NCBI GenBank assembly: GCA_009918005.1
Contig: RGDC01000007.1
Location: forward strand, 1 to 32,229
Direction of reading: 5' to 3'
From: Actinomycetota bacterium
GTDB lineage: Bacteria > Actinomycetota > Actinomycetes > S36-B12 > UBA5976
Length of the DNA stretch: 32,229 nucleotides
Below are positions 4,275 through 16,568 of the stretch, piece by piece (position 1 is the stretch's first letter; the number at the start of each line of letters is the position of its first letter). A program made the position numbers and the translations under genes. Below the pieces are notes generated by a model. The model was not told the DNA's origin and did not search any database. It saw nothing but the letters and a program-made list of their open reading frames with translations.

Positions 4275-4939
4275 TAGATCTACAAGAATTACTCACTAAA
4301 TCGCTGGTAGCGCACGATAGCCAACGGGATCGCAGTAAGCAGGTTGAGATAGGTCCGAGTTCGCTTGGCGGTTGCCGGCGGCGTGTTTATCATGAGTTGA
4401 TAGAGACTCCGCAGACTAATCAAACCGAGAAGTTAGCGGCGATCTTAGGCACTTTTATTCACTCCGGTATCGAAAGCGTTATGGAACGCGAAGATCCCTT
4501 CGGAGATAACTACCTACGGGAAATAGAAGTATCCTACGGCGGGATTAAAGGTCATGTTGATCTTTATATTAAGAGCGAAGGCGCAGTTATTGACTGGAAA
4601 ACAAAGAAGAAAGCCGGCTTGCGGTATTTCCCTAGTCATTCGGAGATATGGCAGGTTCAGACTTACGGCTATCTACTAGACGCTAACGGCTACGAAGTAA
4701 AAACAGTATCGCTGGTCGCTATTCCGCGTGACGGGGAAATGGCAGACATAAAGGTTTATACCGAAGACTATAACCCCGAAGTTGCGAAAGCAGCTCTATC
4801 TTGGTTACAAGAACTGAAAGACATTGTGGCGGGCGCTGGACCTGCTCCGGATCCGGAAGAAAAAGTAGCGTTTTGCTCTAAGTATTGTTCCTTCTATGAT
4901 CCGAGCGGAGAAATAGGGTGCCCAAGTACGGCGAAGTAG
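4271..4939 (+). CDS. PD-(D/E)XK exonuclease, Cas4/RecB-like
   Basis: 'GIKGHVDLYIKSEGAVIDWKTKKK' nuclease motif; 'GGCRRRVYHEL' plus C-terminal 'FCSKYCSFYDPSGEIGCPS' Cys set typical of Fe-S Cas4-like nucleases. Confidence 0.8.
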   Translation: MIDLQELLTKSLVAHDSQRDRSKQVEIGPSSLGGCRRRVYHELIETPQTNQTEKLAAILGTFIHSGIESVMEREDPFGDNYLREIEVSYGGIKGHVDLYIKSEGAVIDWKTKKKAGLRYFPSHSEIWQVQTYGYLLDANGYEVKTVSLVAIPRDGEMADIKVYTEDYNPEVAKAALSWLQELKDIVAGAGPAPDPEEKVAFCSKYCSFYDPSGEIGCPSTAK

Positions 4940-5244
4940 ATTGGGAAGTGGCTGAGTGCCGCGACCTTTACACCGATCTGTTCTACTCAGTAGAAGAAGA
5001 ACGGAACGCAACCGCGTATAACAACATCAACGCGTTGCGCTCGGTCTGCTCCCGGTGTCCGATATGGAAGGCTTGCTTGACTTATGCGTTCGAAAACGAA
5101 AGTTACGGCGTATGGGGCGGATTAACTTCCGTAGAACGGCAAGCCTTCCGACACCCGGAGAAGTATCCGCAGCAACGGCAGCGAGCGCTAAAGGCTCTGA
5201 TTGAAACAGGAATTACCTTGACTCAGATTAGGGAGTGTCTATGA
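4918..5244 (+). CDS. WhiB-family Fe-S transcriptional regulator
   Basis: 'AECRD...ALRSVCSRCPIWKACLTYAFENESYGVWGGLTSVERQ': 4 Cys and GVWGGLT turn; GTG start. Confidence 0.9.
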   Translation: MPKYGEVDWEVAECRDLYTDLFYSVEEERNATAYNNINALRSVCSRCPIWKACLTYAFENESYGVWGGLTSVERQAFRHPEKYPQQRQRALKALIETGITLTQIRECL

Positions 5245-10653: not shown

Positions 10654-11352
10654 ATGAACATAGAGAAGGTAGCGCTGGACTCAATCCGCGAATATCACAA
10701 TAACCCACGCAAAGGCAACACTTCGCTAATTGCCGAGTCGCTTTCGACTTACGGACAATACAAGCCAATAACAGTAAATAAAAGATCCGGAGAGATCCTT
10801 GCCGGTAATCACACTTACCGAGCTGCGAAAGAACTTGGTTGGTCGGAAATAGATGTTGTTTATGTTGATGTAGATGAAACTACCGCCGCCAAGATCGTAG
10901 CCATAGATAATCGGTCCGCAGATTTGGGCGAATACGATAACGAAAAGTTAGCAGCTTTACTAGAAACTTTACCTGAGTTAGACGGATCCGGTTATACGCT
11001 AGATGAGTTTGACGCACTTATTGCCGACATACAAGAAGAAACAACTCCGGAGTTATCAAAGTCCGCTTTCTCTCAGGTTCAAGTAGGGGAGACAGGGCAG
11101 AGCGGAACCCGTTATATCGAGACGCTGGCTGCGTATGGCGAGCGTTACAATCAAAGAGCAACCCGTATGCTCATGGCAGACTTTCCGCCGGAGATCTATG
11201 TGTGGCTAATTGATAAACTTATCTTTGTGCGAAACACGCATAATTTAACAAGCAACGGAGATGCCATAGTAAAAATGGCAGAGATAATCTCAGGGGAGAG
11301 CGCGCCACATGAGTCAGATCAAAATAGCGGATCTACCGATACACAGGATTAA
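10654..11352 (+). CDS. ParB-like domain protein
   Basis: 'VALDSIREYHNNPRKGN...GQYKPITVNKRSGEILAGNHTYRAAKELGWSEIDVVYVDVDETTAAKIVAIDNRSADLGEYD'; ATG 10654 preferred to 10606. Confidence 0.85.
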   Translation: MNIEKVALDSIREYHNNPRKGNTSLIAESLSTYGQYKPITVNKRSGEILAGNHTYRAAKELGWSEIDVVYVDVDETTAAKIVAIDNRSADLGEYDNEKLAALLETLPELDGSGYTLDEFDALIADIQEETTPELSKSAFSQVQVGETGQSGTRYIETLAAYGERYNQRATRMLMADFPPEIYVWLIDKLIFVRNTHNLTSNGDAIVKMAEIISGESAPHESDQNSGSTDTQD

Positions 11353-12187
11353 GCGAGTTCTATCAGAAGAACAGGCAACCGAGTTGGTAGGCACAGTAGT
11401 TCCTGACTACGAACCTACTTGCAACGAAGCCGGTATTTGGATAGATGACGATACGGAAGAAATCGTATTTGTTTATTTCCCTATGCCTGACGAAGTCAAT
11501 ATCTTGCGCAAGGCAGTTCTCAACATCAAGTATGGAGAGACTATTCGCCAATCAACCGGACTCAAAAATAAGTCACGCACTTTCGGAATGGCTCCGAGAA
11601 AGATCTATCAGAAGCGCGAGAGCTGCCGCCCTACTACGCTGGCACAAGAACAACCTATGGAACACGCAGTATTGGTGAAGTTTGCGGAAAAGTTTGCCGA
11701 TATGTATAAAGAGTTTGCTCCGCACTTATACGAAAACGATAAGAAAAACTTGGCTGACGCTGGACTTGACGATGAGTGGAGAATGACCGATGACGCGCTT
11801 TGGACTTCCGGCGTAGTCAATAAGTCTTCTACTTTGCCTTATCACCGAGACGGCTTCAACTTTGCAACTTGGTCTGCTATGCCGGTAATCCGAAAGAATA
11901 TGGCTGGTGGCTATTTAACTATTCCGGAGTATAACTTTACTTGCTCATGTCGAGACGGGTGGGTGACTTTCTTTGCGGGATACAAGTATGTTCATGGTGT
12001 AACTCCGATGAGTCCAAAGACAAAAGACGCATACCGATACTCAATAGTTTATTACGCGCTACGCGGCATGAAAGATTGTTTTACTTACGCAGTTGAAACC
12101 GCTAAAGCGAAAGAGCGCCGGACCGCTCGCGAAGACAAAATGGCGGCAGTTCTCAAAGGCGAAGCGGAAGCACCCGTATTTAGATAA
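11309..12187 (+). CDS. TET/JBP-family 2OG-Fe(II) DNA base dioxygenase
   Basis: 'LPYHRDGFNFATWSAMPVIRKNMAGGYLTIPEYNFTCSCRDGWVTFFAGYKYVHGVTPMSPKTKDAYRYSIVYYAL': HxD, distal H and R in the phage TET/JBP context. Confidence 0.85.
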   Translation: MSQIKIADLPIHRIKRVLSEEQATELVGTVVPDYEPTCNEAGIWIDDDTEEIVFVYFPMPDEVNILRKAVLNIKYGETIRQSTGLKNKSRTFGMAPRKIYQKRESCRPTTLAQEQPMEHAVLVKFAEKFADMYKEFAPHLYENDKKNLADAGLDDEWRMTDDALWTSGVVNKSSTLPYHRDGFNFATWSAMPVIRKNMAGGYLTIPEYNFTCSCRDGWVTFFAGYKYVHGVTPMSPKTKDAYRYSIVYYALRGMKDCFTYAVETAKAKERRTAREDKMAAVLKGEAEAPVFR

Positions 12188-12204
12188 CGCAAGGGGAAGG
12201 CAGT

Positions 12205-13260
12205 ATGAGCAATTTAAAGGAAGGCTTAGATTTCCGCCTACCGCAATACCGATACGATGTATTTCTTGATTTCTATGAGTTTCACTTGAAGTATCGCGCA
12301 CATCCCGGTTGCGTTTATTATCTAATGCCCTATCTCCGGGATCGCTACGGGTGGGATAACGAAGCAGCTCTATGGTTTGCGTTTATCAACGGCAACACGC
12401 AGAACCCGGTCACAAGCCTAATTCTCCACCGGAGATTTCCGGATAAAGGTCAATGGCTGGATCTAGTCAAGTTCTACAAAGAAAACTATGAGCGGCTGGA
12501 GTTCGATACCGATAGGCGCTATCACAAGAAGTCTATGCCGGCAGCGATAGAGAGTTATCTTGCGCTGGTCGGTCCGGATCAATGGGAGTTTTATACCGCT
12601 ACGGCGCAACGCGGCTTCGTAGAGATGTGGAGAGTTGCTACTTCAATCTCTACCTTTGGGCGATTATCTGCTTACTCCTATCTTGAATATGTGCGGATCA
12701 TGGGTATAGATTTCGATTGTGACAATTTGATGTTGGCAGATCGAGACGGCTCGCGCTCGCATAGGAACGGCTTATGTATTGTTAGCGGACTTGATCATTA
12801 TGATTGGCATAAAAGCAACCCAACTTTTGACGGGAACTACCCGCCGGAGCTGATTACTTCGCTCGAAACTATGGGCGCACAGATCCTTGCCGATATGAAA
12901 AAGCGAGCAGCTGGAAAGGATTACGAAAGAGATGTCTCTTACTTTACGCTGGAGTCGGCACTATGCACTTACAAGTCATGGCACCGACCAAACCGCCGAT
13001 ATCCCAATGTCTATAACGATATGTTATTCAATCGGATTAGAAAGAACGAAGCAGCTTGGCCCGAAGAAGATCTCTCGGTATTTTGGGAAGCGCGAAAGCA
13101 TTACTTACCGGACTATCTCCGACTCGAAGATAACCCAAAAGATCTCGGACTCCACCCAAGAAAACAAAATCACTATCTCACTACCGGTCAAGTAATCATG
13201 ATGAACCGGGATTATCCCTACTACAAGAATGAATATAACGATGAGTACGATCTTTCCTGA
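12205..13260 (+). CDS. Amino acid:DNA transferase (alpha-glutamyl/putrescinyl thymine pyrophosphorylase-like)
   Basis: 'YRYDVFLDFYEFHLKYRAHPGCVYYLMPYLRDRYGWDNEAALWFAFINGNTQNPVTSLIL...' pattern; between TET/JBP and PLP genes. Confidence 0.75.
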   Translation: MSNLKEGLDFRLPQYRYDVFLDFYEFHLKYRAHPGCVYYLMPYLRDRYGWDNEAALWFAFINGNTQNPVTSLILHRRFPDKGQWLDLVKFYKENYERLEFDTDRRYHKKSMPAAIESYLALVGPDQWEFYTATAQRGFVEMWRVATSISTFGRLSAYSYLEYVRIMGIDFDCDNLMLADRDGSRSHRNGLCIVSGLDHYDWHKSNPTFDGNYPPELITSLETMGAQILADMKKRAAGKDYERDVSYFTLESALCTYKSWHRPNRRYPNVYNDMLFNRIRKNEAAWPEEDLSVFWEARKHYLPDYLRLEDNPKDLGLHPRKQNHYLTTGQVIMMNRDYPYYKNEYNDEYDLS

Positions 13261-14290
13261 GCAGACCATAGACCGCTCGGTAATGCGGTGGGAAGATTAC
13301 ACATACACTCTTACGCCATTTGAGCAACATCAAGGCTTATGGTGGAAGCGAGAAGATCACTTCGCCCCGCTCGGATACGGCGGACCTAACGGGAGCAAGC
13401 TGCGCCAATTATTATTTTTAACGGGGCAATATGTGGCAAAAGGTGGCAACGCTGGACTGATTACCGGCGCAAGTGTTTTATCTCCGCAGCTCTCGATGAG
13501 CGCGTTGGTATCGAAGCATTATGGACTTACGCCTACGCTTATACTTGGAGCGACTAAACCGGAAACGGCGATCAAGCACGAAAATGTTTATATTGCCGCC
13601 GCAGCTGGAGCAGAGTTTATTTACACGCCCGTAGGCTATAACCCGGCTCTTCAACGCGCAGTAAAACAATACTCAGAGTCCGAGCGCTATAAAGATCATT
13701 ACCGCTTGTGCTATGGAATTACAACGCCGGAAGACGCTACTGATGACGATATAAGAGCGTTCCACGAAGTAGGCGCGTATCAAGTCAAGAACCTGCCGCC
13801 GCACATTACCACGCTTGGTATGACGGCAGGTTCGTGTAATTCTTGCGTATCGGTGCTATACGGCATAGCCAAGTATCGCCCCGCAGACTTAGAGCGGATT
13901 ATCTTGTTCGGTATCGGTCCAACCCGGCTTAACTTTATAGAAGAAAGATTACGCAGGATCGAGAACGCCACAGGCATAGCCATACTGGATCTATTTCGGC
14001 GTAAATATCATCATCACCGAGATCTCGAAGCAGAACATCAGACCGGTGGAGAGATCCTTATTGAGCATTACGATCTTCACCATACTAAGTTCTCCGGCTA
14101 TCAGGACAAAATGCCCTTCGAGCTGAGAGACAAGTCAATATCGTTTCACCCAACTTACGAAGGAAAGGCGCTTACATATATGGATCGCAATAGGGGAATG
14201 TTTGATTGGTATCACGAACCTGACGGGAAAGCAGCGTTTTGGATAGTAGGGAGCCAACCCAACCGCGAGATAGTCGAGCGAGCGCTATGA
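13229..14290 (+). CDS. PLP-dependent enzyme, fold type II (tryptophan synthase beta/ACC deaminase-like)
   Basis: 'LWWKREDHFAPLGYGGPNGSKLRQLLFL' candidate PLP-Lys region; 'LITGASVLSPQLSMSALVSKHYGL'; C-term 'MDRNRGMFDWYHEPDGKAAFWIVGS'. Confidence 0.8.
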   Translation: MNITMSTIFPEQTIDRSVMRWEDYTYTLTPFEQHQGLWWKREDHFAPLGYGGPNGSKLRQLLFLTGQYVAKGGNAGLITGASVLSPQLSMSALVSKHYGLTPTLILGATKPETAIKHENVYIAAAAGAEFIYTPVGYNPALQRAVKQYSESERYKDHYRLCYGITTPEDATDDDIRAFHEVGAYQVKNLPPHITTLGMTAGSCNSCVSVLYGIAKYRPADLERIILFGIGPTRLNFIEERLRRIENATGIAILDLFRRKYHHHRDLEAEHQTGGEILIEHYDLHHTKFSGYQDKMPFELRDKSISFHPTYEGKALTYMDRNRGMFDWYHEPDGKAAFWIVGSQPNREIVERAL

Positions 14291-14823
14291 AAACTATCTA
14301 CCTAATAGGCGCACCGGGATCCGGCAAAACTACTCTTACCGAAGCCCTAACTCGGAACTGGATCGAAGTAGCCAAGCACGATGATCCGGTGAAATGGAGA
14401 GAACATCAGACTCCTTACGGAACGGCGATCTCACTTGGCTGGCTACGCCCTACCTTTGGGGGAACCGACACATTGGGAAATGCCGCAATACTGGAGATTG
14501 AGCCTTGGTATCCGACAATAAATCATGACATTGTGTATGGAGAAGGTGACCGCTTAGCCAATAGGCGCTTCTTTGATCTAGCAATCATGTATGGAGAGTT
14601 TTACTTGTTCTACCTAGATACTCACCCGGAGAGAGCTGCGCAACGGCGTAAGGCAAGAGCTGCGATTACCGGTAAAGAGCAGAACCCGTCATGGGTCAAA
14701 GGTAGAGAGACCAAGCACCGTAATCTAGCGCAAGAATATAACGCAACATTTATCCCTGATGCCTTGACTCCGGAAGAAGGCGCAAGCATAATTCGCGAAG
14801 TCGTATTTCCTACATTACAGTAA
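14287..14823 (+). CDS. P-loop kinase, candidate 5-hydroxymethyluracil DNA kinase
   Basis: 'MKTIYLIGAPGSGKTTLTEAL' Walker A; ATGA overlap with PLP gene (14287-14290); operon context. Confidence 0.75.
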   Translation: MKTIYLIGAPGSGKTTLTEALTRNWIEVAKHDDPVKWREHQTPYGTAISLGWLRPTFGGTDTLGNAAILEIEPWYPTINHDIVYGEGDRLANRRFFDLAIMYGEFYLFYLDTHPERAAQRRKARAAITGKEQNPSWVKGRETKHRNLAQEYNATFIPDALTPEEGASIIREVVFPTLQ

Positions 14824-14827
14824 ATAC

Positions 14828-15319
14828 ATGGCAGGAAAAAAACCGCGTAAAGTGCCGGATCCGGAGATTATTGACCGGGAACTCGCAGTAGTCGAGTTAC
14901 GGAGAACAGGGGAAACTTGGGATCGAATAGCGAAGGTAGTTGGCTACGCGAACGCAGCAGGGGCATACAAGGCTTACAAGCGCGCCTTATTGCGGACCCT
15001 TCAACAACCTACCGAAGAAATGCGGGATCTCGAATTAGACCGGCTGGACCGGCTACAAAGGGCATACTGGAAGCGAGCCATAGAAGGGGAGACGCGAGCT
15101 GCGGATTTTATCCTGCGCGTAATAGATCGCCGCGCCAAGATCTTGGGCTTAGACGCTCCACAGAAGATACAAGCGGAAGTGGTGAATTATGACGGAAGCA
15201 GCAACATTGACTCCGATATCGAACGAATTATCCGATTACTCGACCAAGTGGATCAGAGCCGCCCGCTACAAGTGGAGAGCGGAATTAGCGAGAGCGGAAC
15301 AACTACCACCGGAGAGTGA
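14828..15319 (+). CDS. Terminase small subunit-like
   Basis: 'VELRRTGETWDRIAKVVGYANAAGAYKAYKRAL' HTH; immediately upstream of terL. Confidence 0.75.
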   Translation: MAGKKPRKVPDPEIIDRELAVVELRRTGETWDRIAKVVGYANAAGAYKAYKRALLRTLQQPTEEMRDLELDRLDRLQRAYWKRAIEGETRAADFILRVIDRRAKILGLDAPQKIQAEVVNYDGSSNIDSDIERIIRLLDQVDQSRPLQVESGISESGTTTTGE

Positions 15320-16568
15320 TTGGCATATTTGGCTTTACATGGCTGGTCGCGGTGCTGGTAAGACTAGAACGGCGGCTGAGTGGCTGGCATGGGAAGCGAT
15401 CCAACAACCGGGAACGCGTTGGGCAATAGTCGCGCCTACTTTTTCTGACGCAAGAGATACTTGCGCCGAAGGTGAGTCAGGCGTAATCTCGATCTTGCGT
15501 AGATACAAAATGCTTAGCAGCTGGAACCGATCTATTGGAGAGATCTTGCTGCGTAATGGATCTCGGATAAAGTTATTCTCAGCCGATCAGCCGGATCGCT
15601 TTCGTGGTCCGCAACATCATGGAGCGTGGTGTGATGAGTTGGCGGCGTATAGATACTCAGACGCTTGGGATCAATTACAGTTTGGATTACGCTTAGGCGA
15701 TAAGCCACGCATTATCGTTACTACTACCCCGCGCCCTACCCCGTTAATCCGAGCGCTCGCCAACCGCGATGACGGCTCAGTAGTAATCACTCGCGGATCT
15801 ACTTTTGATAACGCTGCTAACTTAGCGCCTAGTGCGTTGCTGGAGTTACAGGCACGATACAACAATACCCGGCTAGGTCGGCAGGAACTATACGGAGAGA
15901 TCCTTGAAGATGTAGAAGGCGCATTATGGACTAAAGGCTTGATAGATCGAAATAGACTAAATAAAGCACCAAGTTTGGCACGAATTGTTGTATCAATAGA
16001 TCCGGCAGTAACGAATACCAAAGACTCTGACGAAACCGGAATAGTGGTGTGCGGATCTGACGCAGCTGGACATGGCTACCTGCTAGGAGATTACTCATTT
16101 CGGGGATCGCCGCTTGATTGGGCTTCTAAGGCAGTATCGGTCTTCGATGAGTTCAAGGCTGACTCGATCCTAGTAGAAGTAAATCAAGGTGGAGATATGG
16201 TTACTAGCGTTCTCCAACAGATCCGACTTGGCTTACCGATCCGGGAAGTGCGAGCGCATGTGGGCAAGAGACTCCGAGCTGAGCCGATAGCGGCTATGTA
16301 TGAGCAAGGGCGTATTCACCACATTGGAGAGTTCCCGCAGCTGGAAGATCAGATGACACTCTGGACTCCGGAAGAAGTTAATTCACCGGATCGCCTTGAC
16401 GCTATGGTGCAGGGTTTTGCGGATCTTCTTGGTACTATTAATGTTGCGAATTACTTTGGAGCGCTCGCTAATTTCTGCCGTAAGTGTGGATTGCCAATGC
16501 CTAAGTCAATGAGCCATTGTAGTAAATGCGGAACGGCTATGATAGCGCCGGATAGTAAGGGAGTATAA
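15189..16568 (+). CDS. terL: Terminase large subunit with C-terminal zinc ribbon
   Basis: 'MAGRGAGKTRTAAEWLAW' Walker A, 'GAWCDELAAYRY' Walker B-like, 'VSIDPAVTNTKDSDETGIVVCG' nuclease; 'CRKCGLPMPKSMSHCSKCG' at C-term. Confidence 0.95.
   Translation: MTEAATLTPISNELSDYSTKWIRAARYKWRAELARAEQLPPESDWHIWLYMAGRGAGKTRTAAEWLAWEAIQQPGTRWAIVAPTFSDARDTCAEGESGVISILRRYKMLSSWNRSIGEILLRNGSRIKLFSADQPDRFRGPQHHGAWCDELAAYRYSDAWDQLQFGLRLGDKPRIIVTTTPRPTPLIRALANRDDGSVVITRGSTFDNAANLAPSALLELQARYNNTRLGRQELYGEILEDVEGALWTKGLIDRNRLNKAPSLARIVVSIDPAVTNTKDSDETGIVVCGSDAAGHGYLLGDYSFRGSPLDWASKAVSVFDEFKADSILVEVNQGGDMVTSVLQQIRLGLPIREVRAHVGKRLRAEPIAAMYEQGRIHHIGEFPQLEDQMTLWTPEEVNSPDRLDAMVQGFADLLGTINVANYFGALANFCRKCGLPMPKSMSHCSKCGTAMIAPDSKGV

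Follow-up and report, generated by a model that had tools for sequence, protein, structure and literature searches.

A compact phage gene cassette joining a TET/JBP-type oxygenase to ViI-class tailoring enzymes, with a predicted role in thymine hypermodification

Gene content of the cassette

The window analyzed here is an entire 32,229-bp contig belonging to a metagenome-assembled genome (MAG) of 1.5 Mb that is 84% complete. On its plus strand, at 10654-14823, five open reading frames (ORFs) encode a ParB-like protein, a TET/JBP-type oxygenase (TET), an amino acid:DNA transferase (AADT), a pyridoxal phosphate (PLP) enzyme and a P-loop kinase, followed by terminase genes starting at 14828 and 15189 (Table 1). 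We consider it likely that this cassette constitutes a base hypermodification pathway acting on thymine after replication, via TET, kinase, AADT and PLP enzyme. A compact five-gene operon had been proposed at this position in an earlier sequence-only reading and was borne out: the ORFs are intact, three neighboring pairs overlap (by 44, 20, and 4 nt) while 17 nt separate the fourth, and purifying selection acts on all five, with ratios of nonsynonymous to synonymous substitution (dN/dS) of 0.046-0.067 between the window and a sister phage. Such low ratios in every gene indicate a kept gene set, and the identical set was found again in 42 distinct IMG/VR contigs. An alternative in-frame ATG at 13229 is possible for the PLP gene.

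All five family assignments of that reading hold, by Pfam for four proteins and by profile and fold for the PLP enzyme. Hidden Markov model searches placed ParB_N, Tet_JBP, ADDT, and Ploopntkinase3 above their cut-offs, and PDB assignment of TET, AADT, and PLP enzyme was settled by alignment profiles rather than by single sequences. The ParB-like protein matches PF02195 (ParB_N, 2.7e-7) and phrog_723 (1.2e-46). TET matches PF12851 (Tet_JBP, 3.8e-10; 39.7 bits versus a cut-off of 34.9) and phrog_6059 (1.9e-82), its family profile matches structures of TET2 and Naegleria Tet (9e-6 to 7e-5), and residues H179, D181, H229, and R243, forming the HxD...H iron triad and the 2-oxoglutarate arginine, are invariant in 25 sequences. 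The kinase matches PF18751 (Ploopntkinase3, 7.1e-29; 101 bits versus a cut-off of 27) with an intact Walker A motif, GAPGSGKT, that is conserved across the family; its family profile matches gp054 of Pseudomonas phage M6 and, weakly (E 2.7e-10), Vi01_061c of Salmonella phage ViI, the window and ViI kinases being 23% identical.

The AADT matches PF18724 (ADDT, 8.9e-18; 65.3 bits versus a cut-off of 26.2), and its profile matches both solved AADTs, 25qc (M6 gp51, 1.4e-39) and the glycinyltransferase 8z2m (3.7e-21). Structures were predicted from alignments built solely from window and viral-contig sequences; the AADT model (predicted local distance difference test, pLDDT, 95) has 8z2m/8z2n as best Foldseek matches, with a template modeling score of 0.63 and a weak E of 0.012. 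Class profiles separate ViI (Vi01_199, 163 versus 6 bits) from M6 (2.7 versus 50 bits), and the window AADT, which matches that of ViI at 1e-29 (30% identity) and that of M6 at 0.02, belongs by these scores to the ViI class and not to the M6/glycine class. The PLP enzyme has no Pfam match; it matches phrog_3650 at 1e-90 and aligns with ViI Vi01_182 over 98% of its length at 37.7% identity. Its family profile matches structures of ACC deaminase and D-cysteine desulfhydrase at 1e-12, its model (pLDDT 95.5) shows fold type II with Foldseek matches to the same two enzymes, and the Schiff-base lysine K53 is invariant in the family.

Public labels for two of the families look wrong: phrog_6059 (TET) is called "queuine tRNA-ribosyltransferase" and phrog_800 (kinase) "terminase small subunit", both also in GenBank records, with NC_022061, NC_007809, and NC_015296 showing such doubtful labels. 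Taken at face value, these names in PHROGs and several GenBank entries would suit a relic or a non-DNA role of the cassette, such as tRNA or small-molecule modification. We regard this as highly improbable, as the labels clash with catalytic motifs and Pfam families, dN/dS is below 0.07 in all five genes, and the gene set recurs across viral contigs.

Table 1 Features of the cassette and its right flank
Feature	Position	Strand	Basis of assignment
ParB-like protein, first gene of the cassette, N-terminal ParB_N domain	10654..11352	+	PF02195, phrog_723
TET/JBP-type 2-oxoglutarate/Fe dioxygenase	11309..12187	+	PF12851, phrog_6059, TET2/Naegleria Tet profile matches
Amino acid:DNA transferase (AADT), ViI class	12205..13260	+	PF18724, profile matches to solved AADTs
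Fold type II PLP enzyme, homologue of ViI Vi01_182 (orf00226)	13241..14290	+	full-length homology, fold
P-loop kinase (Ploopntkinase3), predicted 5-hydroxymethyluracil-DNA kinase	14287..14823	+	PF18751, Walker A
Terminase-associated gene, probable small subunit, cassette flank	14828..15319	+	phrog_645, position before large subunit
Terminase large subunit (TerL), right flank	15189..16568	+	PF03237 4.9e-26, PF17289 6.2e-13

Exchange of the entry enzyme

In the known amino-acid modifications of thymine, synthesis of a 5-hydroxymethyl nucleotide precedes replication, and thymine is thereby first replaced by 5-hydroxymethyluracil (5hmU). To place the window cassette among its relatives, three scans of IMG/VR were combined, yielding 167 distinct contigs, 108 of them with an AADT; since contigs were gathered by similarity to the window proteins, all counts describe this family and not phages at large. 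TET is present in 77 of the 108 AADT contigs and a thymidylate-synthase-type hydroxymethylase in 13, none contain both, and 18 contain neither within the available stretch. This mutual exclusion yields a Fisher p of 1e-8, a value that overstates independence given the relatedness among the contigs, and the AADT tree is better evidence for an exchange of the entry enzyme. In this quick tree TET and hydroxymethylase routes are interleaved, with seven switches, at least four of which are forced by starred branches. Routes are likewise interleaved, with weaker support, in the PLP tree, where the ViI enzyme falls among TET-route PLP enzymes with moderate support and the M6 enzyme lies far off. Downstream enzymes thus seem indifferent to the entry enzyme, which in turn indicates one shared intermediate, 5hmU in DNA. 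Thymidylate-synthase homologues (PF00303) were found neither in the L010 and L012 contigs (G001; G002, complete) nor in the TET isolates. An aGPT1 homologue is always present in the 13 hydroxymethylase contigs. Judged by gene content, the entry enzyme is exchanged, with TET here in place of the deoxyuridine monophosphate hydroxymethylase of ViI, and the tailoring enzymes are retained.

The remaining cassette genes follow TET and AADT closely. A kinase accompanies the AADT in 71 of 77 TET contigs (p 1e-22), and a PLP gene in TET contigs always occurs with an AADT (43 with, 0 without). ParB precedes TET by at most 2.5 kb in 98 of 113 TET contigs, and none of the 13 hydroxymethylase contigs has it, suggesting a link of ParB to the oxygenase; the ParB-like protein probably assists in recruiting the oxygenase to DNA. 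TET and kinase also occur without an AADT at the same site (L145-L148, L150, L152, and phages KayaCho and Margaery); phosphorylated 5hmU may be the end product there, or a transferase may have gone unrecognized.

Known phages share parts of this arrangement. ViI-type phages carry 5-(2-aminoethoxy)methyl-dU (5-NeOmdU) in ~40% of T (PMC11721090), and ViI has in common with the window phage a homologous AADT (Vi01_199, 30%), PLP enzyme (Vi01_182, 38% over the whole length), and distant kinase (Vi01_061c), along with the same predicted chemistry downstream of 5hmU. It differs in that a thymidylate-synthase-type enzyme makes the 5-hydroxymethyl nucleotide before replication, whereas the window phage has TET and no such enzyme; moreover, the genes are scattered in ViI, with Vi01_061c adjoining the thymidylate-synthase homologue Vi01_060c, and form one compact block in the window phage. 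Pseudomonas phage M6 (5-NedU) and the PaMx glycinyltransferase system (8z2m) share AADT fold and family and the kinase, and M6 also a PLP enzyme, but their AADT is of the other class, the M6 PLP enzyme is very distant, and M6 uses a radical SAM enzyme and a hydroxymethylase instead of TET. For Rhodococcus phage Tonitrus, a five-gene TET-containing set has been put forward as possible thymidine hypermodification (PMC11955845), so the concept of a TET-primed route is not new. Tonitrus likewise has a ParB-like protein, a TET-like protein (47% identical), an ADDT-family protein, and a kinase in one block upstream of the terminase, but it has an M6-class AADT and no PLP enzyme, and Pfam gives no match for its fifth gene, whose grouping with the flavin adenine dinucleotide (FAD)/DAO enzyme of phage Kozie reflects only the use of both as seeds of one profile. 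The corresponding site of Hangman-, KayaCho-, and Vincenzo-type Mycobacterium phages holds ParB-TET-(AADT)-kinase-TerL or ParB-PLP-kinase-TerL, yet TET, AADT, and PLP enzyme occur together in none of the three. The combination of TET with ViI-class AADT and PLP enzyme was not found in the literature searched. If true, a 40-kb phage could, by using TET for entry, leave its deoxynucleoside triphosphate pool normal and modify its DNA after replication, and the exclusive, interleaved entry enzymes give a clear, testable claim, namely that thymine in DNA is the substrate hydroxylated by this clade of phage TETs.

Target base and predicted product

Thymine, and not 5-methylcytosine (5mC), is very probably the base that is modified. 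The sister contig measures 39,972 bp, is 91-94% identical to the window at the nucleotide level in the main aligned blocks, and carries a terminal repeat of 154 bp whose copies differ at a single position; it therefore very likely represents a complete genome of ~39.8 kb. Neither PF00145 (C5-methyltransferase) nor PF00303 was detected in this genome or in five complete TET isolate genomes (Tonitrus, Hangman, KayaCho, Kozie, and Margaery), and PF00145 is missing from the 84% complete MAG of the window. In a cytosine route, a phage or host C5-methyltransferase would generate 5mC, TET would convert it to 5-hydroxymethylcytosine, and kinase, AADT, and PLP enzyme would lead to an amino-acid-decorated cytosine. 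Several relatives speak for such a route: L131, a close TET relative (73% identical) with a glycosyltransferase-like neighbor, carries a complete C5-methyltransferase (G016:C1:31495-32658), C5-methyltransferase-like genes occur in L132 and L138 (both with AADT, FAD enzyme, and kinase) as well as in L015, and a Pfam family of TET-associated glycosyltransferases (TAGT) exists and is matched in related loci. We nevertheless judge it unlikely, given the genomes just listed and the same AADT and PLP families occurring beside a thymidylate-synthase-type hydroxymethylase, that is, acting on 5hmU. A C5-methyltransferase gene or piece was present in only 6 of 54 records tested, some of them with AADT, and was rejected as a rule alongside TET in this family. 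In L132 and L138, the C5-methyltransferase-like sequences are two short ORFs near one another, each with a match confined to the N-terminal part of the family.

Phages with TET and TAGT share the ParB-TET-terminase frame, but glycosylation presumably takes the place of phosphorylation and aminoacylation on their oxidized base, and at least some of them carry C5-methyltransferases. No glycosyltransferase lies between TET and TerL in the window. Since C5-methyltransferases occur in some relatives, also beside AADT, a cytosine version is conceivable in L132, L138, and L015, where TET would act on 5mC to give an amino-acid-decorated cytosine and the available methyl group would decide between thymine and cytosine; we rate this as improbable, and to our knowledge amino-acid-decorated cytosine in DNA has not been described.

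For the thymine route, the order of oxidation, phosphorylation, amino acid transfer, and PLP tailoring put forward in the sequence-only reading is upheld as the best reading, its chemistry being inferred. Hydroxylation of thymine methyl groups in phage DNA by TET would yield 5hmU, the new hydroxyl of which would be phosphorylated by the kinase. The AADT would then exchange this phosphate for a free amino acid, which the ViI analogy suggests to be serine. By the same analogy, the PLP enzyme is predicted to decarboxylate the adduct to a thymine that bears an amine, with 5-NeOmdU or something closely related as the likeliest identity; this base would shield the DNA from host nucleases. Lee et al. 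are said to have reported in 2022 that the ViI AADT uses serine and that the ViI PLP enzyme decarboxylates. It is the ViI-class AADT/PLP pair that makes a 5-NeOmdU-like product guessable; that the end product is exactly 5-NeOmdU is a serious but tentative assignment.

Within the same thymine route, another amino acid, for example glycine, or a non-decarboxylating PLP enzyme is an appreciable though doubtful possibility. The ACC-deaminase/D-cysteine-desulfhydrase fold usually performs deamination or beta-elimination, the solved AADT relative 8z2m is a glycinyltransferase, and 17 TET contigs with ViI-class AADT show no PLP gene, whereas the class of the window AADT and the end-to-end alignment of its PLP enzyme with that of ViI argue for the ViI chemistry. 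Three points weigh against the pathway as drawn here: C5-methyltransferase genes or pieces stand on some related TET contigs, including one with both AADT and PLP enzyme (L015); the serine and decarboxylase assignments come from the chemistry reported for ViI plus homology; and, with 30% (AADT) and 23% (kinase) identity to ViI, the amino acid could differ.

Swap site and source contig

A swap site lies between TET and terminase, where the cassette is exchangeable among related phages. Compared with the window, L115 is 81% identical in TET, 64% in kinase, and 88% in TerL, and carries an M6-class AADT and an FAD-dependent DAO-family gene where the window has a ViI-class AADT and a PLP gene. Across TET contigs, PLP genes occur with 42 of 59 ViI-class and 0 of 17 M6-class AADTs, and FAD genes with 12 of 17 M6-class and 0 of 59 ViI-class AADTs. 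Other relatives have kinase alone or glycosyltransferase-like genes, two of which match or approach Pfam TAGT and several of which have no Pfam match, and module kinds are mixed in the TET tree. The several decorating modules of this site are a ready source of new base-modifying enzymes.

An M6-class AADT and a DAO gene between TET and kinase were seen in L115, L116, L118-L121, L123, L124, L132, L136, L138, and L155; a TET-primed route with these enzymes may end in aminomethyl-uracil. L041 combines M6-class and ViI-class AADTs with TET, kinase, and PLP enzyme, and in L158 (5181-6266) an Asp/Asn beta-hydroxylase-like 2-oxoglutarate enzyme (PF05118) lies between AADT and kinase. In kinase-less relatives, glycosyltransferase-like genes and a HAD-like gene without Pfam match follow TET (L127:4765-6134, L131:10890-12271, and L149:4510-5484).

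The contig reads as phage, with WhiB, RusA, SSB, HNH, and terminase genes and further structural genes by position. The gene at 14828..15319 matches phrog_645 at 8e-33 (labeled Rnase E) and is kept in sister phages. A nucleotide search of phage records returned nothing beyond one 58-base match, and a scan of genome contigs for the cassette recovered one MAG fragment only (L208). Promoter matches were at chance level; terminator-like matches (10 versus 5.9 in shuffles) lie mostly on the minus strand and were not used as evidence. Four further WhiB genes on its other contigs mark the MAG as actinobacterial, and from a small actinobacterial MAG we infer a freshwater origin. The phage WhiB-like regulator encoded in the window at 4918-5244 fits an actinobacterial host.

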